Source: Bacteroidota bacterium (GTDB lineage Bacteria; Bacteroidota; Bacteroidia; Chitinophagales; Saprospiraceae). Taken from it: DNA of 64,000 nt. Both the position numbers and the translations under genes were made by a program. Positions 6,506 through 33,401 of this stretch are shown here, piece after piece (the stretch's first letter is position 1; each line of letters starts with the position of its first letter). Below the pieces are notes generated by a model. It was not told where the DNA came from. It saw nothing but the letters and a program-made list of their open reading frames with translations, and did not search any database. The stretch covers positions 186,001 to 250,000 of the forward strand of contig JAIUPL010000002.1 of assembly GCA_020160935.1 (NCBI GenBank), written 5' to 3'.

Positions 6506-6802
6506 GTTATCAGTTATCAGTTATTGGTTATCAGGGCAGGTAAGGGGTTATCTGTTTTTCAGGCTGGGCAACTCGGGTAGTTGAGTAGTTGAGAGGTAGA
6601 GTAGTTGAGTAGTTGAGAGGTTGAAGAGTTGAGTAGTTGAGGGGCGGCCACCCTGGAGAATTTTGATCACCTCTCTTTGTGTTTCATTACTACGTTCCCT
6701 CAACTCTTCAACCTCTCAACTACTCAACTACCCGAGTTGCCCAGCCTGAAAAACAGATAACCCCTTACCTGCCCTGATAACCAATAACTGATAACTGATA
6801 AC
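6506..6802. repeat. Long inverted repeat 4, perfect 92-base arms
   Basis: Positions 6506-6597 are the exact reverse complement of 6711-6802 by direct reading. Outermost is a tandem GTTATCA module; next a unique stretch containing GGCAGGTAAGGGG and GGCTGGGCAACTCGGG; then a tandem GAGTAGTT module that continues into the loop, so the arms can also pair in shifted registers. It lies between two convergent genes (6207-6503 and 6807-7856) and fills the whole gap. Confidence 0.97.
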
Positions 6803-10309: not shown

Positions 10310-10312
10310 TTT

Positions 10313-10508
10313 TTTAGTGTTTGGGTGTTTTAGTATTTTGGTGTTTTAGTGTTTGGGTGTTTTGGTGTTTTTGTGTTTTGGTGTTTTGGTGTGCTTCGCG
10401 CATGGCATTTGTCAGGCAACTCCATGACCTTATTTTCAAATGCCATACGCGAAGCACACAAAAACACTAAAACACCCAAACACCCAAACACCAAAACACA
10501 AAAACACC
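10313..10508. repeat. Long inverted repeat 5 (TTTTGGTG-type arms), inside the molybdenum cofactor gene set
   Basis: Left arm (10313-10388): tandem variants of TTTTGGTG, TTTGGGTG and TTTTAGTG. Right arm (10460-10508): the complement (CACCAAAA, CACCCAAA). Inside is a 22-base unique stem, GTGTGCTTCGCG(C/T)ATGGCATTT, at 10389-10410 pairing with 10438-10459, with a 27-base loop. It lies between moeA and moaC, both read on the minus strand, so a read-through transcript would carry the hairpin directly before the moaC start. Confidence 0.93.
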
Positions 10509-10516
10509 TCTAAAAA

Positions 10517-13161: not shown

Positions 13162-13462
13162 TGGCATTCACTCTGTGTATCTGTATTAATGTCTTCCAGA
13201 AAACGTTGAACACCTCTTTTCTTTATTTTGGATTCCAATTGTACGGAAGCACCACGAGTGTTGCATTCAAAAAAAATGGACGAGTTTCCAGGGCCTGCCA
13301 TTTCGAGCGGAAGAAACCTGGCCTTGATTGTGTCGCTCGATACGATTTCCGAGGTGGTTGGTTTGTCCGACGTAAAATTTGCCAGTCAATTGACTGAACA
13401 GAATGTAGACATAAAACATGGCGTGGAGATGAAGATTATGCGATGTTAGCAGTAAAAAAAAA
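13162..13462. other. Intergenic stretch with no recognised gene
   Basis: About 300 bases between the MFS gene and the tRNA terminator. A short plus-strand frame (13228-13449, 73 codons, starting MDSNCTEAP) is open, but it has no recognisable domain and no convincing promoter. I see no RNA gene or repeat here. Confidence 0.5.
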
Positions 13463-13493
13463 GTGCAATTGCCTGCTTATCAGGCAATTGCAC
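13454..13493 (-). terminator. Intrinsic terminator of the tRNA-Thr/tRNA-Pro transcript
   Basis: GTGCAATTGCCTG (13463-13475) and CAGGCAATTGCAC (13481-13493) form a perfect 13-bp stem with a 5-base loop. On the minus strand it is followed by nine T (13454-13462). It lies about 45 bases after the tRNA-Pro gene. Confidence 0.85.
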
Positions 13494-13536
13494 TAATGGT
13501 GAAGAGGGGGGACGCTTTGGCGCCACGACCTTTGTT

Positions 13537-13613
13537 TGGTCGGGATGACTGGATTCGAACCAGCGACTTCGTCGTCCCGAACGACGCGCGCTACCGGGCT
13601 GCGCTACATCCCG
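13537..13613 (-). tRNA. tRNA-Pro (CGG)
   Basis: On the minus strand CGGGATG (5' end) pairs with CATCCCG in the acceptor stem. The anticodon loop is TTCGGGA with anticodon CGG, and GGTTCGAATCC is the T arm. The discriminator A and an encoded CCA follow (13537-13540). The gene is transcribed after tRNA-Thr, and its 5' end directly abuts inverted repeat 6. Confidence 0.95.
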
Positions 13614-13750
13614 AGAAGTGAGAAGTGAGAGGTGAGAAGTGAGAGTGCGTAGAATACACCGTTTCGTGCCTTTATAAGAAAACTATTATAGCGAAGCGGT
13701 GTACTCTACGCACTCTCACCTCTCACCTCTCACCTCTCACTTCTCACCTC
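13614..13750. repeat. Long inverted repeat 6 (GAGAAGT/GAGAGGT arms), exactly filling a tRNA spacer
   Basis: Left arm: GAGAAGT/GAGAGGT heptamers, then GTGCGTAGAATACACCG. Right arm: CGGTGTACTCTACGCAC, then complementary heptamers (CACCTCT, CACTTCT). Only a few unit-order mismatches are seen. The loop is about 35 bases. The hinge ACTCTACG lies at 13703-13710. The element starts right after the 5' end of tRNA-Pro and ends right before the encoded CCA of tRNA-Thr, leaving no other spacer sequence. Confidence 0.95.
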
Positions 13751-13825
13751 TGGAGCCACTCAAGGGATTTGAACCCTCGACCTGCTGATTACGAATCAGC
13801 TGCTCTACCGCTGAGCTAAAGTGGC
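13751..13825 (-). tRNA. tRNA-Thr (CGT)
   Basis: On the minus strand GCCACTT pairs with GAGTGGC. The D arm is GCTCAGCGGTAGAGC, the anticodon loop TTCGTAA gives CGT (Thr), and the T arm contains GGTTCAAATCC. The discriminator is T, with an encoded CCA at 13751-13753. It is upstream of tRNA-Pro in the same direction. Confidence 0.95.
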
Positions 13826-13997
13826 TTGTTATGCTTGCAAAAAAGGCTCAAGGATGGTGCCAAAAAACAATATTTTGCTAAAGCGGCGGCAAATATAGTG
13901 GTATCAGGTAAAATGTGTCAAGCGGCGGCAGAATTTTTCATAGAAAAAATGCCTTTAAATCTGACGACCTCCCAATATTGTTATACTGAAACGGCCG

Positions 13998-14033: not shown

Positions 14034-14804
14034 ATGCACCACCTCATCGACACCCATGCCCACCTGTATTCTTCCAAATTCGATTCCGATAGAAGCGAGA
14101 TGGTGCAACGCGCCATTCAGGCTGGTGTAATCCGGATGTACTTGCCTAATATCGACGCCGAATCCATTGAAGGTATGCTGGCCCTGGAAGCACAGTTTCC
14201 GGAACACTGTTTTGCCATGATGGGCCTGCATCCGGGCTCTGTGCAGGCTACCACATATCGAAAAGAACTGGAAATTGTGGAACACTGGCTGGGGCAGCGC
14301 GCCTGGGCTGGTGTGGGAGAAACAGGTATCGACCTGTACTGGGACAAATCGACGCTCGATATTCAGAAAATTGCTTTTGCCCGTCAGATCGAGTGGGCCA
14401 AAGACCTGGGCAGACCCATCATCATCCATTCGAGAGAAAGTAACCGGGAATGCCTCGAACTCGTGGGCAAGGCGCAAGATGGCCGCCTGCGAGGTATTTT
14501 CCACTGTTTTTCCGGTACACTGGAAGAAGCCAGGCAAATGATCGACCTGGGTTTTATGCTTGGGATCGGCGGCACACTGACTTATTCCAAATCGGAATTG
14601 CCCACTATACTTCGGGAAGTGCCGCTCGAACATATTGTACTGGAAACCGACGCCCCCTATCTCCCGCCGGTACCATACCGTGGTAAGCGCAATGAAAGCG
14701 CTTATATTCGCCAAACGGCTGATATGCTGTCGGAAGTAAAAGTGGTGCCACCTGCAGAAATCGCGCGGGTGACCACGGCAAATGCGCTGAGAATGTTTTT
14801 GTAG
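14034..14804 (+). CDS. tatD: TatD family metal-dependent DNase/hydrolase
   Basis: This is a 256-residue TIM-barrel metalloenzyme. Visible ligands are DTHAHL (residues 6-11), GETGIDLYW near 101 (the Glu ligand), PIIIHSRE near 128 (His), IFHCFSGTLEEA near 157 (His) and LETDAPYLPP near 204 (Asp). TatD proteins are 3'-5' exonucleases or related amidohydrolases. The stop codon immediately precedes the first heptamer of inverted repeat 3. Confidence 0.93.
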   Translation: MHHLIDTHAHLYSSKFDSDRSEMVQRAIQAGVIRMYLPNIDAESIEGMLALEAQFPEHCFAMMGLHPGSVQATTYRKELEIVEHWLGQRAWAGVGETGIDLYWDKSTLDIQKIAFARQIEWAKDLGRPIIIHSRESNRECLELVGKAQDGRLRGIFHCFSGTLEEARQMIDLGFMLGIGGTLTYSKSELPTILREVPLEHIVLETDAPYLPPVPYRGKRNESAYIRQTADMLSEVKVVPPAEIARVTTANALRMFL

Positions 14805-14938
14805 GAGTTATGAGTTATGAGTTATGAGTTATGAGTTATGAGTTATGAGTTATGATGCTGTACTCCTGGCTTTGTTATTAGAGTGGCCAAAAGCAAAGTG
14901 AGTAAAACTCATAACTCATAACTCATACCTCATAACTC
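14805..14938. repeat. Long inverted repeat 3 (GAGTTAT tandem arms)
   Basis: Left arm: seven exact GAGTTAT units (14805-14853). Right arm: five units of ATAACTC type, one AAAACTC and one ATACCTC (14904-14938). The core (14854-14903) starts GATGCTGTACTCC and contains AGAGTGGCCAAAAGCA, the same core as elements 1 and 2. It lies between convergent tatD and the OmpA-family gene. Confidence 0.95.
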
Positions 14939-14944
14939 CAAAAC

Positions 14945-16105
14945 CTACCCATTCATCGTCAAAATCTTCACCTCCACTCGTTGGTTCTTTTTCTTTCCTT
15001 CCGGAGTGGTATTGGGTTGGATCGGGTATTTCCAGCCATAACCTTTGTATTGCACGCGGTTGGAGGTGACACCTTTGCTCACCAGCCAGTTGGCCACGGC
15101 TTTGGCGCGGTTGGTGGAAAGTTCTTCAGCGAAGGCTTCGTTGGGCCACATAGCGTTGTTGGTGTGGCCGCCCACTTCGATCACCACATCCGGGTTGTCT
15201 ATCAGGAAATCATATAAAGAGGTGAGTTCGGGCTCACTTTCCGGCTTGATTTCGTATTTGTTGGCATCGAAATAGAGTCGTTCGAGGCGATAAATTTTAC
15301 CCGTTTTCATCACCTTCCGCTCAATTTTTGTGACGGCGGCAGGTTTGGGCTCCACCTTTCTGGCGGGTGTGTCTACTTTTGGCGCGGCGGTTACCCGGGG
15401 AGCGGTTGGCGTGATTTTAGGCGGCGCTTTGGCGGCTACCGGCGGCTTTTTGGCATCCGGCATTTTGTCGGGGTTGCAAGGCACCGGTTTGATTGCCGAG
15501 GCGTTGTCTACCAGTACGTTGCCATTGGTAGGGAAGAGGATCGGCGTTTTATAGTACGCTTCAATCATCAGGTAGGTGTAATTGCCTTTCGGATTGAAGC
15601 GGAAATTATATGTCAGCCAGCGCGTGTTGGTGATGATGGATGTTTCCGCCAACAGTTCGCGGGAGTCGCAGTACCCCATACCGCCCCAGATGCGAACGCG
15701 GGCCGGAACTGCATAATTCACATCTTCGCCGGTAACACGGCTCACACTGAGGTACAGTTCGGCGCGGCACAGATCGAGGCTGAATTCGTAGCACTGGCCG
15801 GATTCCAGCGGGCGGCTGAGGCGCTGGCCTACGCCTTCCCAGGTTTCGTTGTCGCGTACCACCAGGCCGAGGTAAGTTTGTCCGTGGTTGGCAGGTTTGG
15901 CAACAGTCCAGCCGCCGGGCTGTACGTCGGGAGGTGTTTCGCCGGCTTTTCCACAATTGTACCAGCCGGTAGGTGTTTCGCCCATTTTAGGCAAGTCTTC
16001 AAAAGAAGGGTTGGTGAGTACGATAGGGGCATCCTTCTGTGCCGATAAACCGATCGGCAGCATCAGTACCAGTGAAAAACACCAATGTTTTAAGTTATTT
16101 CCCAT
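14945..16105 (-). CDS. Secreted OmpA-family protein with N-terminal jelly-roll-like domain
   Basis: From the ATG at 16105 (386 residues; 16114 also possible) there is a signal peptide (NLKHWCFSLVLMLPIGLSAQ). An N-terminal domain begins IVLTNPSFEDLP and is beta-rich with paired Cys, resembling carbohydrate-binding-like modules (inference). A Pro/Ala/Lys-rich linker (about 230-270) follows, then a C-terminal OmpA domain (LYFDANKYEIKPES, VIEVGGHTNN, LSTNRAKAVANWLVSKGV, YKGYGWKYP, NQRVEVKIL) that binds peptidoglycan. It probably sits in the periplasm or outer membrane, tied to the cell wall. Confidence 0.87.
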   Translation of the reverse strand: MGNNLKHWCFSLVLMLPIGLSAQKDAPIVLTNPSFEDLPKMGETPTGWYNCGKAGETPPDVQPGGWTVAKPANHGQTYLGLVVRDNETWEGVGQRLSRPLESGQCYEFSLDLCRAELYLSVSRVTGEDVNYAVPARVRIWGGMGYCDSRELLAETSIITNTRWLTYNFRFNPKGNYTYLMIEAYYKTPILFPTNGNVLVDNASAIKPVPCNPDKMPDAKKPPVAAKAPPKITPTAPRVTAAPKVDTPARKVEPKPAAVTKIERKVMKTGKIYRLERLYFDANKYEIKPESEPELTSLYDFLIDNPDVVIEVGGHTNNAMWPNEAFAEELSTNRAKAVANWLVSKGVTSNRVQYKGYGWKYPIQPNTTPEGKKKNQRVEVKILTMNG

Positions 16106-17790: not shown

Positions 17791-18126
17791 TCACCAAACC
17801 CAGTCATCCATATCCTCGAGGGGTTTGGGTTTCAGCGACTGTTTGGTTTCTACGCGTTGCCGTTGCCGTTCGAGCACCAGCCGTGCCAGTCCTAGTGCAG
17901 GCGGCTCCGGAGCGGAGGGGTGCATGACGGGTACAATTTTTTCCTCCAGTACATCGAGGCGGTACAACATGCTCATCAGGTACTCGGGTCTTTTTTCGAG
18001 CATTTCCTCGATGCGCTCGGCCAGCAAGGCCAGCAGGGCCTCTTCAGAAGGCGGGTCTTGCGCCCCTTCCAGTTCGAAAGGACCGCGAATCAGGGCAGCG
18101 GTTTGTTGAAGTATCTGGTCGTTCAT
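17791..18126 (-). CDS. Small helical protein of unknown function
   Basis: This 111-residue product starts MNDQILQQTAALIRG. It contains LALLAERIEEMLEKRPEYLMSMLYRLDVLEEKI and then HPSAPEPPALGLARLVLERQRQRV. It is mainly helical, with no signal peptide. I recall similar unannotated proteins in other Bacteroidota sharing the EYLMS-YRLDV and ARLVLERQ patterns, but have no function for them. The start is set by a TACCTTTG box only 6 bases upstream, which implies a nearly leaderless mRNA. Confidence 0.7.
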   Translation of the reverse strand: MNDQILQQTAALIRGPFELEGAQDPPSEEALLALLAERIEEMLEKRPEYLMSMLYRLDVLEEKIVPVMHPSAPEPPALGLARLVLERQRQRVETKQSLKPKPLEDMDDWVW

Positions 18127-18131
18127 ACGCA

Positions 18132-18139
18132 CAAAGGTA
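18132..18139 (-). promoter_or_regulatory. Bacteroidota -7 box (TACCTTTG) for the 111-residue protein gene
   Basis: A full TAnnTTTG match on the minus strand ends 5 bases before the ATG at 18126. Confidence 0.5.
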
Positions 18140-18143
18140 AATG

Positions 18144-18172
18144 AAAAAAGCCACCCCGAAATCGGAGTGGCT
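18144..18172 (-). terminator. Intrinsic terminator of tRNA-Asn
   Basis: On the minus strand AGCCACTCCGA pairs with TCGGGGTGGCT (one G-T pair) around a short loop and is followed by six T. It starts 6 bases after the tRNA-Asn 3' end. Confidence 0.85.
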
Positions 18173-18177
18173 TTGTG

Positions 18178-18251
18178 CGTCCCATCAAGGACTTGAACCT
18201 TGGACCTACGGATTAACAGTCCGTTGCTCTAACCAACTGAGCTAATGAGAC
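18178..18251 (-). tRNA. tRNA-Asn (GTT)
   Basis: On the minus strand GTCTCAT pairs with ATGGGAC. The D arm is GCTCAGTTGGTTAGAGC, the anticodon loop CTGTTAA gives GTT (Asn), the T arm contains GGTTCAAGTCC, and the discriminator is G. Unlike the Thr and Pro genes, no CCA is encoded (the next bases are CAC), so the tail must be added by an enzyme. Confidence 0.95.
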
Positions 18252-18332
18252 AGCGCTTGTTTTTTAAGCGGGGCAAAGATATGATGGGCTGATTTAAATT
18301 TGCAACCTTTGTCGAGCAAAATTTTTTCCAAC

Positions 18333-19256
18333 ATGCAAAAAAAATGGCTTTCGCTGTCATCCGAGGTGCAAAATGCCCTTGCGGAAGGCAAACCGGTGGT
18401 AGCGCTGGAAAGTACCATCATTGCGCACGGCATGCCTTTCCCGCAAAATGTGGAAACGGCCCTGCGCGTCGAACAGGTGGTGCGCGATGCCGGCGCCATT
18501 CCTGCCACTTGTGCAGTGATGGGAGGGCGGCTCACTTGCGGACTGAATGCCGATCAAATTGAATTGCTCGGACGTGGCGGCCATCAAATTCCCAAAGCCA
18601 GCCGACGCGACCTGGCCTACCTGCTCAGCCGGGGCGACGACGGGGCAACGACGGTGGCTTCTACCATGATTATTGCCCATCAGGCGGGCGTGCGGGTGTT
18701 CGCCACCGGTGGCATCGGTGGTGTCCACCGAGGTGCAACCACCACGATGGATATTTCGGCCGACCTGCCCGAACTGGCACAAACGCCTGTGGCCGTGGTG
18801 AGTGCAGGAGTCAAAAGCATCCTCGACCTTCCGCTCACGCTGGAATACCTCGAAACGCAGGGGGTGCCGGTGATCGGTTATCAAACCGACGAATTCCCCG
18901 CGTTTTATACCCGCCACAGTGGCCTGAAGGTCGATTTTAGGATGGATTCGCCCTCTGAAATTGCGCGGATGCTGGATGCACAATGGAGCGCCGGTTTGCG
19001 CTCCGGCGTTGTAGTGGCCAATCCGGTGCCCGCTGAGTATGAGGCCGATCCGGTCATGATAGACCGGGCCATTGCCGAGGCCCTGGCGGCTGCCGAACAA
19101 CAAGGAGTACGTGGAAAGACCATTACTCCGTTTTTATTGGCATTTATCGAACAAACTACCGGCGGCCGTAGCCTGACAACGAATATCGAACTGGTGTGTA
19201 ATAATGCGCGGCTGGGAGCGGAAATTGCCGGTGCGTTGGGGAGGAGGATGAATTAG
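18333..19256 (+). CDS. psuG: Pseudouridine-5'-phosphate glycosidase
   Basis: PsuG splits pseudouridine 5'-phosphate into uracil and ribose 5-phosphate (reversibly) during breakdown of modified RNA. The 307-residue product shows VVALESTIIAHGMPFPQN near the start, IPATCAVMGGRL, KASRRDLAYLLSRGDDGATT, VFATGGIGGVHRGA, SAGVKSILDLPLTLEYLET and a C-terminal GKTITPFLLAFI. The ATG at 18333 is chosen over an upstream TTG. No PsuK kinase is adjacent. The stop codon (TAG at 19254-19256) is already part of the left arm of inverted repeat 7. Confidence 0.95.
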   Translation: MQKKWLSLSSEVQNALAEGKPVVALESTIIAHGMPFPQNVETALRVEQVVRDAGAIPATCAVMGGRLTCGLNADQIELLGRGGHQIPKASRRDLAYLLSRGDDGATTVASTMIIAHQAGVRVFATGGIGGVHRGATTTMDISADLPELAQTPVAVVSAGVKSILDLPLTLEYLETQGVPVIGYQTDEFPAFYTRHSGLKVDFRMDSPSEIARMLDAQWSAGLRSGVVVANPVPAEYEADPVMIDRAIAEALAAAEQQGVRGKTITPFLLAFIEQTTGGRSLTTNIELVCNNARLGAEIAGALGRRMN

Positions 19257-26032: not shown

Positions 26033-26040
26033 CAAAAGTA
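26033..26040 (-). promoter_or_regulatory. Bacteroidota -7 box (TACTTTTG) for the TMTC-like gene
   Basis: The minus strand reads TACTTTTGCC, a full TAnnTTTG match 25 bases before the ATG at 26007. Inverted repeat 10 begins 5 bases upstream of it, so the -33 region is inside the repeat arm. Confidence 0.55.
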
Positions 26041-26045
26041 GTAAA

Positions 26046-26187
26046 CAGTCCTGAGTCCTGAGTCGTAAGTCCTGAGTCCTGAGTCCGTAGAGTCCACCTG
26101 ATTAAACTTGGCTTCCGTAAAAAGAATACCCAGGGTAATCAGGTGGACTCTACGGACTCAGGACTCAGGACTTACGACTCAGGACTG
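26046..26187. repeat. Long inverted repeat 10 (GTCCTGA heptamer arms)
   Basis: This is the same family as element 8. The left arm 26046-26104 has one more GTCCTGA unit than the right arm 26136-26187. Hinges: CGTAGAGT (26086-26093) and ACTCTACG (26147-26154). The unique inner stem is CCACCTGATTA; the loop is about 31 bases. It lies between two minus-strand genes: it holds the stop codon of hemD and the upstream promoter region of the TMTC-like gene. Confidence 0.96.
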
Positions 26188-26839
26188 TTACAGCCAGTCC
26201 CCGCTCGTTCGCTTCCTCCGCCACATGCACTTCCGCTATGCCCAGTTGTTGCAGGGCAGCGGCCGTGGTGGCACCGATGGCCACTACTTTTTGATGTAGG
26301 AGTAGGTCATGTTGGGTAAAATAAGTTCGGGCATTCATAGGGCTCGTAAAAACGAGCACATCATCCTCTTGAAGCACAACATCGTCAACAGGTTGATTGT
26401 CATATACTTCGAGATGCAGAATGGAGAAACGTTCGCTTAATTGTGCAGCGACACTTTGCATGGAATGCCGCGCTGCCGGAAACAGTACACTGCAAGGTGC
26501 CACCTGTGCAGCAAAGGCGGCAGTGCTGGATACCGGGTCGCCAGTGCCTGTAAAATCGACCTGCGGCACGAATCCGGAAAGGGCCTCGGCAGTGGCCGCG
26601 CCCAAAGCCGCCCATTTGACCTGCGGAATGGAAATATTGGCGGCAGCGATTTGTTGGAAAAAGAAACGAACCGCATGCTGGCTGGCAAAAAAAATCCATT
26701 CGCACGCAGGCACTTCATAGAATGGCAGCGGTGTGAGGCGCACCAGCGATCGAGCGCTTACCTGCCAGCCGTTTTCCTGCAGGTGTCGGGAAAATTCGGA
26801 TTCGGGCGTTTGGGCGCGGGAGATAAATGCGGTTGGCAT
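26165..26839 (-). CDS. hemD: Uroporphyrinogen-III synthase
   Basis: HemD closes and isomerises hydroxymethylbilane to uroporphyrinogen III in heme synthesis. The 224-residue product has the weakly conserved but recognisable family pattern: N-terminal FISRAQ, EWIFFASQHAVRFFF (the [I/V]-F-T-S-x-N-A-V-like stretch), KWAALGAATAEAL, then DDVLVFTSPMNARTYF and VVAIGATTAAALQQLGI in the second half. The fold is two Rossmann-like lobes. The final residues (Thr-Val-Leu-Ser-Arg-Lys-Ser) and the stop codon are all encoded by the GTCCTGA arm of inverted repeat 10, so the natural C-terminus has probably been replaced or extended. Confidence 0.85.
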   Translation of the reverse strand: MPTAFISRAQTPESEFSRHLQENGWQVSARSLVRLTPLPFYEVPACEWIFFASQHAVRFFFQQIAAANISIPQVKWAALGAATAEALSGFVPQVDFTGTGDPVSSTAAFAAQVAPCSVLFPAARHSMQSVAAQLSERFSILHLEVYDNQPVDDVVLQEDDVLVFTSPMNARTYFTQHDLLLHQKVVAIGATTAAALQQLGIAEVHVAEEANERGLAVTVLSRKS

Positions 26840-30532: not shown

Positions 30533-32172
30533 GCCGTAAGGAATCATGGGGCAGCAGGGCCGGACTGGTGCTGGCTATGGCCGGCAATGCAGTGGGGCTG
30601 GGGAATTTTCTGCGATTCCCGGTACAAGCCGTTCAAAACGGTGGCGGTACCTTCATGATTCCTTATCTCGTTTGTTTCCTGCTGATGGGCGTCCCCCTGC
30701 TCTTTGTAGAATGGAGCATGGGGCGCTTCAGCGGGCAATACGGCGACCACTCGGCGCCATTTATCCTGCAACGCCTGGCGCCCCGCCGGCAGTTCTGGTG
30801 GAAATACGTTGGTGTATTCGGCATTTTTACTAATCTAACCGTTGCAGGTTATTACAGTTATGTGGAAAGTTGGACGCTCTCCTATGTCTGGCATTCCATT
30901 TCCGGCGTTTTTCAGGGCCGAACAGCGGATGAAATTGCCGCTTTTTTCAATAATTATGTCCTTCATCCTGGCGCCGAAGCCCTCCTGTGGTGGCTGCTGT
31001 GCCTGCTGCTCAATGTGTGGGTACTATCGCGCGGACTGAAAAACGGTGTAGAAGCCGTGGCTAAAATTGCCATGCCACTGCTGGTACTTTTTGGACTTTT
31101 CCTGGCATTTAAAGGATTGACCGTGCAGGCGGGCGTCGATGGCGCGCGTTTCAGCAGCGCGGAAGGACTCAATTTTTTATGGACGCCCGCTGTGGGCAGC
31201 ACCATCTGGGACCCTAAAATATGGATTGCCGCCGCCGGGCAAATTTTCTTTACCCTGTCTGTCGGCATGGGCAGTGTGCAATGCTACGCCTCGTACATGG
31301 GTGCGCACGAGGATGTGGCGCTCAATGCCATGAGCGCTGGCTGGATGAACGAATTTGTAGAAGTATGTCTGGGTGCTGCTATCGTAATTCCTATTTCGGT
31401 GGGCTATTTCGGCGTGGACTGGGTGGTGGAAAATACGCGCAATGGTGGGCTGGGGCTCGGTTTTCGCACCCTGCCCTATTTGTTTCAGCAATGGGGCCCT
31501 GCGATGGCGTTGCTGAGTGGCATGTGCTGGTTCGGGTTGTTGTTTTTTGCAGGCATCACTTCCTCATTGGCCATGGGCATGTCCATCATGGGTTTTCTGG
31601 AAGATGAGTTTCAGTTGGATCGCCTGAAAAGCGCCTGCCTGTTTGGCCTGGCGGCCTTTGTACTGGGCTTGCCCACAGTGCTGTTTTTCAGCCACGGCGT
31701 ATTCGATGAATTCGATTACTGGGCGGGCACCGTTTCGCTGGTGGTATTTGCCATGTTCGAAATGATCCTGTTTGCCTGGGTGTTTGGTATGGACAAGGGC
31801 TGGCGCGAAATCACCGCCCATGCCGATATTCAGGTGCCGCTTGTGTTCAAATTCATCATCAAATGGGTGACACCCACGCTGCTGCTGCTGGTATTTGTAG
31901 GCGCTTTTTTCAAACCTGAAAACAACGACTGGCACGCCGTGCTGCAAGGCCAATGGGTGCTCGATGACGGCTCCGTAGTGCATCAAATCCTGAACACCCG
32001 CCTGAAAAAAGCCATGGCTGCCGCTACCGACGCCGAACAATTGCAAACCATGCAGGAACAACTGAACTACGTCAACCTGTCGCGCCTGTTGCTGGCCATT
32101 ACCTTTGCGGGCGTATGGGCCATGGTGTACGTAGCCTATCAAAAACGACTTAAAAAAGAAAAACAGGCATGA
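30529..32172 (+). CDS. Neurotransmitter:sodium symporter family transporter (MetP-like), TTG start
   Basis: The 547-residue product has about 12 membrane helices and starts SRKESWGSRAGLVLAMAG, followed by the sodium/substrate motif NAVGLGNFLRFP in TM1. It begins at a TTG whose last two bases overlap the TGA of the permease. GGAGAAAG directly precedes it, and no ATG would keep the conserved WGSRAGL segment, so the TTG start is well supported. The next gene is a 34-residue MetS-like protein, which suggests a two-part MetPS-type carrier; methionine or alanine are known substrates of that type. Confidence 0.9.
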   Translation: MSRKESWGSRAGLVLAMAGNAVGLGNFLRFPVQAVQNGGGTFMIPYLVCFLLMGVPLLFVEWSMGRFSGQYGDHSAPFILQRLAPRRQFWWKYVGVFGIFTNLTVAGYYSYVESWTLSYVWHSISGVFQGRTADEIAAFFNNYVLHPGAEALLWWLLCLLLNVWVLSRGLKNGVEAVAKIAMPLLVLFGLFLAFKGLTVQAGVDGARFSSAEGLNFLWTPAVGSTIWDPKIWIAAAGQIFFTLSVGMGSVQCYASYMGAHEDVALNAMSAGWMNEFVEVCLGAAIVIPISVGYFGVDWVVENTRNGGLGLGFRTLPYLFQQWGPAMALLSGMCWFGLLFFAGITSSLAMGMSIMGFLEDEFQLDRLKSACLFGLAAFVLGLPTVLFFSHGVFDEFDYWAGTVSLVVFAMFEMILFAWVFGMDKGWREITAHADIQVPLVFKFIIKWVTPTLLLLVFVGAFFKPENNDWHAVLQGQWVLDDGSVVHQILNTRLKKAMAAATDAEQLQTMQEQLNYVNLSRLLLAITFAGVWAMVYVAYQKRLKKEKQA

Positions 32173-32273
32173 ATACCCGGGCTTTCATCATGATGTTAGG
32201 CACCAACCTGATCGTGGCTGGATTCACGGCCTGGTTTTTCTGGAAAATACTGCGCAAACCGCGTGGGAGGTAG
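32169..32273 (+). CDS. MetS-like small subunit of the NSS transporter (34 residues)
   Basis: The short frame MNTRAFIMMLGTNLIVAGFT... ends in WKILRKPRGR. It is one membrane helix with a basic cytoplasmic tail. Its ATG overlaps the symporter's TGA (ATGA), a strong sign of translational coupling. Small single-helix subunits of this kind are known beside NSS transporters (MetS with MetP in Corynebacterium). The assignment rests on length, topology and position, not on a sequence search. Confidence 0.75.
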   Translation: MNTRAFIMMLGTNLIVAGFTAWFFWKILRKPRGR

Positions 32274-32305
32274 ATCCACTTCATTCAAATCCTTATCATT
32301 TTACC

Positions 32306-33202: not shown

Positions 33203-33215
33203 ACAACCAGGAGTC

Positions 33216-33332
33216 TTTGTCTACTCTACGCCTTGTGTCCTTTGTGAAACCTTGGTGAACTTGGTGGTTAAATTTTTTTACCACGAAGTTCACCAAGGTT
33301 TCACAAAGGACACAAGGCGTAGAGTAGACAAA
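33216..33332. repeat. Long inverted repeat 11 (CCTTTGTGAAACCTTGGTG arms)
   Basis: The outermost 45 bases or so of the two arms (from 33216 and up to 33332) are exact complements; the innermost part is imperfect and there is almost no loop. From outside in: TTTGTCT, the hinge ACTCTACG (33223-33230; complement 33318-33325), then CTTGTGTCCTTTGTG and AACCTTGGTGAACTT. It lies between co-directional genes (aldolase and TfoX-like). Confidence 0.95.
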
Positions 33333-33341
33333 TATTTTTTG

Positions 33342-33349
33342 TATTTTTG
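33342..33349 (+). promoter_or_regulatory. Bacteroidota -7 box (TATTTTTG) for the TfoX-like gene
   Basis: TATTTTTG matches TAnnTTTG 52 bases before the ATG. It lies 10 bases after inverted repeat 11, so the -33 region is in the repeat arm. Confidence 0.5.
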
Positions 33350-33401
33350 ATCCCGCAGCAGGTGATTTGCACACAAGTCACATTCATTTCCTTCTATTAT
33401 C

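Follow-up and report, generated by a model that had tools for sequence, protein, structure and literature searches.

The genes for tRNA-Thr and tRNA-Pro of a Saprospiraceae bacterium (assembly GCA_020160935.1, here G000) are separated by a long palindrome. The locus raises the question of whether this element takes part in tRNA processing, whether its insertion used tRNA ends as landmarks, or whether it is a repeat that is tolerated in this position. The window analyzed here comprises 64,000 nt (contig JAIUPL010000002.1, positions 186,001 to 250,000), and window coordinates are counted from its first base. We consider it probable, at roughly 0.75, that the palindrome is a copy of a dispersed, non-coding GTGAGAG palindromic repeat, located in a spacer that is normally very short within a probable Thr/Pro operon, and that this repeat is spread and kept as DNA and is tolerated there.

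Structure and transcription of the tRNA-Thr/tRNA-Pro locus

Both tRNA genes were identified with ARAGORN and lie on the minus strand, with tRNA-Thr(CGU) (13751..13825) as the first and tRNA-Pro(CGG) (13537..13613) as the second gene of the operon. The CCA of tRNA-Thr is encoded (13753-13751). The 137-nt spacer between the two genes (13614..13750, minus strand) is a heptamer-armed palindrome of the GTGAGAG family, with tandem GTGAGAA/GTGAGAG heptamers outermost and a GTAGAGTACACC-type core inside. Its first arm (13613..13666) leads from GTGAGAA/GTGAGAG heptamers into the core GCGTAGAATACACCGTTTCG and is followed by a 25-nt loop (13667..13691) and the second arm (13692..13745), in which the core CGAAGCGGTGTACTCTACGC precedes the heptamers. 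These gapless arms are complementary at 50 of 54 positions, and the longest uninterrupted helix in the predicted fold of the precursor RNA measures 49 bp, which bears out the stem of about 50 bp in the original prediction. The accompanying claim that the palindrome exactly fills the spacer held up with two small corrections: the spacer is palindromic over its whole length, but the first arm includes base 1 of tRNA-Pro (13613), and the last 5 nt of heptamer sequence next to the tRNA-Thr CCA (13746..13750) fall outside the gapless stem. The gapless palindrome score of the spacer was 41, whereas none of 500 mononucleotide shuffles scored above 11, and the RNA fold including both tRNAs reached -161.3 kcal/mol (z -12; none of 200 shuffles was as low).

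The two tRNAs had been proposed to be transcribed together, and we find this likely, based on signals at both ends of the pair. A promoter-like motif, TTG-N21-TATATTTG (13890..13921, minus strand), which we take to be the promoter type of Bacteroidota, starts 96 nt upstream of tRNA-Thr, an intrinsic terminator-like hairpin with a 14-bp stem followed by a T run is found downstream of tRNA-Pro (13462..13494, minus strand), and a check for separate promoters revealed no such motif in this spacer. Among 23 loci of the genus, the full promoter-like motif precedes tRNA-Thr in 18 and the TAnnTTTG half alone in three (G006, G016 and G014); neither of them was seen upstream of tRNA-Thr in G023 and G027. 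The full motif was not found upstream of tRNA-Thr in G006 and G016, the sister loci that share the GTGAGAG element, and this counts against our preferred explanation. Two transcriptional roles for the palindrome were considered and rejected. As for a separate promoter of tRNA-Pro, TAnnTTTG was seen in one of the 23 spacers (G016 only), and as for an intrinsic terminator, the scan found none in the palindrome and placed the minus-strand site after tRNA-Pro.

The same spacer in related genomes

We searched 37 genomes of the same genus, G000 included, and, from at most 30 loci retained, read 23 with both tRNAs, some further pairs being cut by contig ends. The Thr-Pro spacer measured 2-28 nt in 13 loci, 40-50 nt in three and 91-244 nt in seven. 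The expectation that relatives would normally have a short spacer was thus confirmed, short being the commonest state of this spacer. Since the spacer is usually shorter in relatives, the palindrome is, as judged from these loci, a secondary gain. Heptamer palindromes make up four of the seven long spacers, with GTGAGAG in G000 and G006 and GTTTTGAG in G020 and G023, and at least two palindrome sequence types therefore occupy the same spacer. In G016, a single GTGAGAG arm is left, G034 carries other palindromes, and the spacer of G014 contains a terminator-like hairpin together with part of a tRNA-Pro copy. Partial tRNA-like copies were also seen more generally around the pair, either in the spacer (G014, L013) or just upstream of Thr/Pro (G023, L012; G027, L015).

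The GTGAGAG copies at the Thr-Pro site differ in how closely they approach the tRNAs. The G006 copy begins 5-6 nt after tRNA-Thr and ends 9 nt before tRNA-Pro, and the G016 copy leaves ca. 3 nt on the tRNA-Thr side. No flanking nucleotides are present in G000, the only one of these copies with an exact fit.

Palindromes across the genome

A survey of long hairpins was carried out in an 800 kb sample of G000, composed of 40 stretches of which 27 were chosen around tRNAs, with genes called by a crude codon-score caller. The sample contained 153 hairpins, or ca. 1,100 if scaled to 5.84 Mb. Their total length ranges from 62 to 378 nt (median 136) and their arm length from 22 to 110 nt (median 48; the minimum is set by the search threshold). 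Families are represented by 14 motif classes defined here, in addition to 25 unclassed hairpins, and the gap comparison described below used a slightly larger list. The largest families were AGTCCTG (26) and GTGAGAG (18 of the 153). In G000 as a whole, the GTGAGAG family occupies at least 40 distinct places, this one included (85 matches, with 40 of 242 seed candidates scored).

Placement of the hairpins was far from even. None of the 153 was centered in a called ORF. Among gaps between protein genes, 49 of 88 contained a hairpin where the neighbors were convergent, 61 of 290 where they were co-directional and 13 of 81 where they were divergent; convergent gaps of 100-199 nt held one in 23 of 25 cases. 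Elements were located at a median distance of 11 nt from stop codons (n=169) and 96.5 nt from start codons (n=94). Most hairpins lie at the 3' end of a gene, frequently flush with its stop codon, and both genes and 5' regions are avoided. Because palindromes are often equally flush with the stop codons of protein genes, the exact fit in the Thr-Pro spacer is not specific to tRNAs, and flush neighbors are ordinary in this genome. The fit would result from a short target and counter-selection of copies that harm a tRNA, and would not be functional in itself. A filling resembling that of the tRNA spacer was seen in the window at 10310-10516, where the gap between moaC-like and moeA-like genes (identified from translations) is mostly occupied by GTGTTTT repeats from 10312 and a palindrome extending to 10508.

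GTGAGAG seed candidates, which are not confirmed matches, numbered 159-365 in G000, G006, G016, G028 and G031 and at most 18 in each of the other 55 of 60 genomes. These five element-rich genomes share long DNA matches across intergenic regions. A sample of 149 order-level genomes, which does not include the four sisters, contained 32 matches of the core CGTAGAGTACACCG in G000 and one each in two others. With regard to mobile carriers, no exact match of an 18-nt core was found in viral_contigs, and a plasmid search matched 164 records, of which the ten listed hit the tRNA parts of the query as judged by query coordinates. Neither a transposase nor a target duplication was identified, which counts against the preferred explanation, and we infer insertion as an event from comparison only. 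A MITE of a TA-inserting transposon should show a TA duplication at both ends and have a parent transposase with matching inverted repeats. As for the duplication, some GTGAGAG copies read TAGAG...CTCTA, in which the T-A pair may be part of the palindrome, and the spacer copy is flanked by CA and CG.

GTGAGAG elements at tRNA 3' ends

Taking all families of the G000 sample together, elements were found within 40 nt downstream of 6 of 34 tRNAs and 126 of 527 protein genes (P 0.53). GTGAGAG copies alone were present at 4 of 34 tRNAs and 17 of 527 protein genes (P 0.03), a weak enrichment. Of the six elements lying no more than 40 nt from the 3' end of a tRNA, four belonged to this family, compared with 14 of 147 elsewhere (P 0.002). 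We rejected tRNA spacers as a general hot spot, as two of five tandem tRNA spacers and 61 of 290 co-directional protein gaps were occupied (P 0.29).

Wider tRNA surveys covered 34, 35 and 35 tRNAs in G000, G006 and G028, respectively; the underlying Rfam searches scored 150 of 218-243 candidates each, and some of the downstream stretches end early at contig ends. Among heptamer-armed elements located ca. 15 nt or less from a tRNA 3' end, GTGAGAG made up five of six in G028 and six of seven in G006, compared with a background of 18 of 153 in G000. Two of the six in G006 are one-armed (after Leu and Gly). GTGAGAG sites comprise Thr-Pro, Val-Pro, Thr-Tyr and Tyr-Gly as well as positions after Ile(GAU), Leu(UAG) and Gly(UCC), and the family also occurs at the tRNA-Gln site, there behind a terminator-like hairpin. 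In G028, a palindrome of another kind starts 15 nt after tRNA-Ser(CGA).

The second idea of the original prediction, that insertion targets tRNA 3' ends and uses them as landmarks, could draw on the weak enrichment of GTGAGAG and on offsets from the tRNA that are mostly 4-8 nt in the copies read. Several observations speak against it: all families together show no preference for tRNAs, 14 of the 18 sampled GTGAGAG copies lie away from tRNA 3' ends, other families are present in the tRNA spacers of G023, the copies in G006 and G016 are not flush with the tRNAs, the 3' ends of protein genes are approached just as closely, and tandem tRNA spacers are not significantly enriched. We therefore regard a landmark mechanism as quite improbable.

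The surveys yielded three further observations on tRNA loci. The spacer between tRNA-Ser(GGA) and tRNA-Ser(CGA) contains a different palindrome-like repeat around CCGCCGWAGCC in G000, G006, G028 and, as several units, G022 (L132, L193, L200, L209). A tRNA-Thr-Tyr-Gly-Thr cluster of the sister genomes is absent among the 35 tRNA matches of G000 (150 of 218 candidates scored), perhaps reflecting an assembly gap. Dense arrays of tRNA matches, many of them low-scoring, were present among the matches listed at G009:C4:239778-243185 and G007:C2:584545-587455, in two relatives whose assemblies comprise few contigs.

Turnover at protein-gene gaps and retention at tRNA sites

We located 39 protein-gene gaps of G000 in at least one of four sister species; at least one of these gaps contains a tRNA gene (tRNA-Asn, window 18126-18333). 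This resulted in 101 gap comparisons, three of which had sister gaps longer than 1000 nt and were dropped before counting. Occupied G000 gaps had an occupied counterpart in the sister in 29 of 40 comparisons, and empty ones in 19 of 58 (P 2e-4). The contrast was weaker (28 of 39 and 11 of 28, P 0.012) when the comparison was confined to non-divergent gaps and, among the empty G000 gaps, to those measuring 60 nt or more. The same nominal family was seen in 7 of the 29 occupied orthologous protein gaps, and three of those seven look loose by eye. These comparisons suggest that an occupied protein-gap site tends to remain so in the sister species, usually with a palindrome of another family. The combination of occupied gaps and changing family offers a concrete test between parasites with hot spots and exchangeable 3'-end structures.

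Individual gaps illustrate a range of states. In the convergent gap between TatD-like and OmpA-like genes (window 14804-14945; L237, L238, L239), a GAGTTATG palindrome is found in G000, GATGAATG in G016 and GTGTTT palindromes in G031 and G006. A presence/absence pair is provided by a 199-nt gap of G000 (ca. 33203-33401) with a ACCACGAAGG-type palindrome, which corresponds to 11 nt in G028 (L250:13451-13461). A larger difference was seen at window 30538-32291, where ca. 1.75 kb of G000 is missing between adjoining matches in G028.

The four GTGAGAG tRNA sites of G000 gave ten sister readings, namely seven intact GTGAGAG copies, two single arms (Thr-Pro in G016 and Leu in G006) and one site without an element. 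At the tRNA-Leu(UAG) locus of G006 (L249, G006:C180), the single GTGAGAG arm is succeeded by a GTGTTT-type palindrome, after which the contig ends (211 nt covered). The right arm may lie beyond the contig end, and the GTGTTT-type palindrome may be nested in an older element or represent its partial replacement. No element was seen after tRNA-Gln in G006 in the tRNA downstream survey. With the G006 Leu site taken as a swap, in keeping with the treatment of the protein gaps, the family was retained in 7 of 8 readings at tRNA sites compared with 7 of 29 protein gaps (P 0.002, the value adopted here). Other ways of counting the tRNA readings gave P 4e-4 (7 of 7) and P 7e-5 (9 of 9). In G016 and G031, the sites after tRNA-Ile and tRNA-Leu had been read because they matched the family search. 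Sister comparisons are not phylogenetically independent, and the contrast in retention is inflated by shared ancestry. Two readings fit these data: greater age of the tRNA copies together with protection from replacement, or a particular suitability of GTGAGAG for tRNA ends. The stronger retention of GTGAGAG at tRNA ends, relative to other families at protein gaps, argues against a purely tolerated element.

Maintenance of the palindrome and a possible role in tRNA processing

Several comparisons bear on whether the palindromes are kept as DNA or as RNA. In four orthologous copies after tRNA-Leu, 16 of 48 pairs changed on both sides, i.e. in a compensatory manner. Over 17 tRNA-adjacent copies, G-U pairs made up 47 of 965 pairs in the sense RNA and 45 of 943 in the antisense RNA, and no strand asymmetry was seen. 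The G000 and G028 copies at window 26040-26190 differ by whole heptamers. As selection on the RNA should favor G-U pairs in the sense strand, the lack of asymmetry is most simply explained by upkeep at the DNA level, with one arm corrected by the other or with copying from other elements.

Long RNA duplexes are expected to be substrates of RNase III. The predicted precursor fold has C1 (position +1) of tRNA-Pro engaged by the hairpin, and the 3' ACC of the same tRNA engaged by GGU of the spacer; this joint fold is only ca. 3 kcal/mol better than independent folding. In PMC9433436, pairing of a leader with the 3' RCCA is described as inhibiting a step of RNase P binding, and a leader stem-loop in E. 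coli valVW as inhibiting RNase P and ordering processing. Given the predicted pairing of +1 and ACC, these reports and the duplex as an RNase III substrate, an effect of the hairpin on RNase P and on processing, as first suggested for this locus, is plausible. The valVW case resembles the present one in that a polycistronic tRNA transcript has a hairpin immediately 5' of one of its tRNAs. It differs in that the valVW stem-loop is backed by experiments cited in that source (PMC9433436), whereas the spacer hairpin is a lineage-specific, predicted 49-bp helix.

These considerations allow a stronger alternative, in which the hairpin is a functional RNA processing element that is cut by RNase III and thereby separates the tRNAs or times RNase P, with the tRNA-adjacent GTGAGAG copies being kept for this purpose. 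The high share of GTGAGAG at the tRNA 3' ends of G028 and G006, the seven intact copies among ten sister readings, the predicted engagement of +1 and RCCA of tRNA-Pro by the spacer and the valVW precedent would all fit such a role. It is nevertheless rather unlikely in our judgment. The sense and antisense strands do not differ in G-U pairing, 13 of 23 loci manage with spacers of 2-28 nt, so that most of these relatives do without the hairpin, a single arm is all that G016 retains, G006 has no element after tRNA-Gln and carries a GTGTTT-type palindrome behind the single GTGAGAG arm after tRNA-Leu, and retention is partly explained by shared ancestry. A broader version, which we consider speculative and on balance unlikely, would treat gene 3' ends as conserved seats for family-exchanging palindromes, with GTGAGAG as the tRNA-specialized resident at co-transcribed tRNA 3' ends, kept as a working processing hairpin. 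If the processing idea were true, lineage-specific repeats would have made their way into essential tRNA operons, and the division of labor between RNase III and RNase P could naturally be tested on a 49-bp hairpin that abuts the +1 position of a tRNA.

According to our preferred reading, that of a tolerated dispersed repeat, the element would spread and stay palindromic as DNA, through copying and arm-to-arm correction of hairpin DNA. The spacer copy would be tolerated because it leaves both tRNAs intact and because maturation eliminates the long RNA hairpin, presumably by RNase III acting on the 49-bp helix and then by RNase P and 3' processing.

Relation to known repeat systems

As set out in PMC3733652, REPs measure 20-40 bp, have stems of 5-13 bp and carry a terminal unpaired GTAG/CGTC tag, and their convergent copies, in the species plotted, are mostly located less than 20 bp from both 3' ends. 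The present palindromes are similar to the REPs and BIMEs of that account in being palindromic, intergenic, present in high copy number, scarce in divergent gaps and concentrated at gene 3' ends. They are unlike them in their longer spans and arms, many of which consist of tandem heptamers, and in that no matching RAYT flank was found in the seven Y1 neighborhoods read.

The possibility that the spacer element is an ordinary REP of a RAYT (Y1 transposase) system is, in our assessment, highly unlikely, even though REPs share its genomic habit of convergent and co-directional gaps near 3' ends (PMC3733652) and Y1 transposase matches are present in 33 of 41 genomes of the genus. Length, stem and heptamer arms differ from those of REPs; GTAG occurs inside the arm (GTAGAGTACACC) and not as a terminal tag, and the helix comprises 49 bp and not 5-13 bp. 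Further, in 7 of 15 Y1 neighborhoods read in the five element-rich genomes, no GTGAGAG palindrome was found within 1.8 kb of the Y1 gene, and thus none of these genes was flanked by the repeats in question. Three of the seven neighborhoods contained GGGCG...CGCCC hairpins, three contained different hairpins and one (G028) contained none; a heptamer-like palindrome of another family lies ca. 1.7 kb from the Y1 gene of G006. The GGGCG...CGCCC hairpins are found beside the Y1 genes of G000 (L230:4583-4677), G006 (L233:4220-4376) and G016 (L234:4331-4606). They may be the Y1 genes' own REPs, unlike the heptamer palindromes.

Heptamer repeats are also known from cyanobacterial STRR and from the heptanucleotide stem of P6b in the tRNA-Leu(UAA) intron, and the spacer palindrome likewise consists of tandem 7-nt units in intergenic DNA, the feature of STRR-type repeats. 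The spacer element is kin to known dispersed intergenic palindromes. Its features include the heptamer arms, the strong placement at 3' ends, the exchange of families at protein gaps and the retention at tRNA ends. The listed titles and abstract beginnings of the open-licence literature searched contained no description of palindromes in tRNA spacers of this group. TAACTGA heptamer repeats occur in Beggiatoaceae, Cyanobacteria and Bacteroidetes and, in the genome studied in that work, are mostly direct repeats just upstream of start codons (PMC4679880). They share tandem 7-nt intergenic units with the present elements, among them a palindrome at window 6506-6802 in which TCAGTTA, complementary to TAACTGA, occurs; unlike the TAACTGA sets of that source (PMC4679880), the heptamers here form two complementary arms at gene 3' ends.
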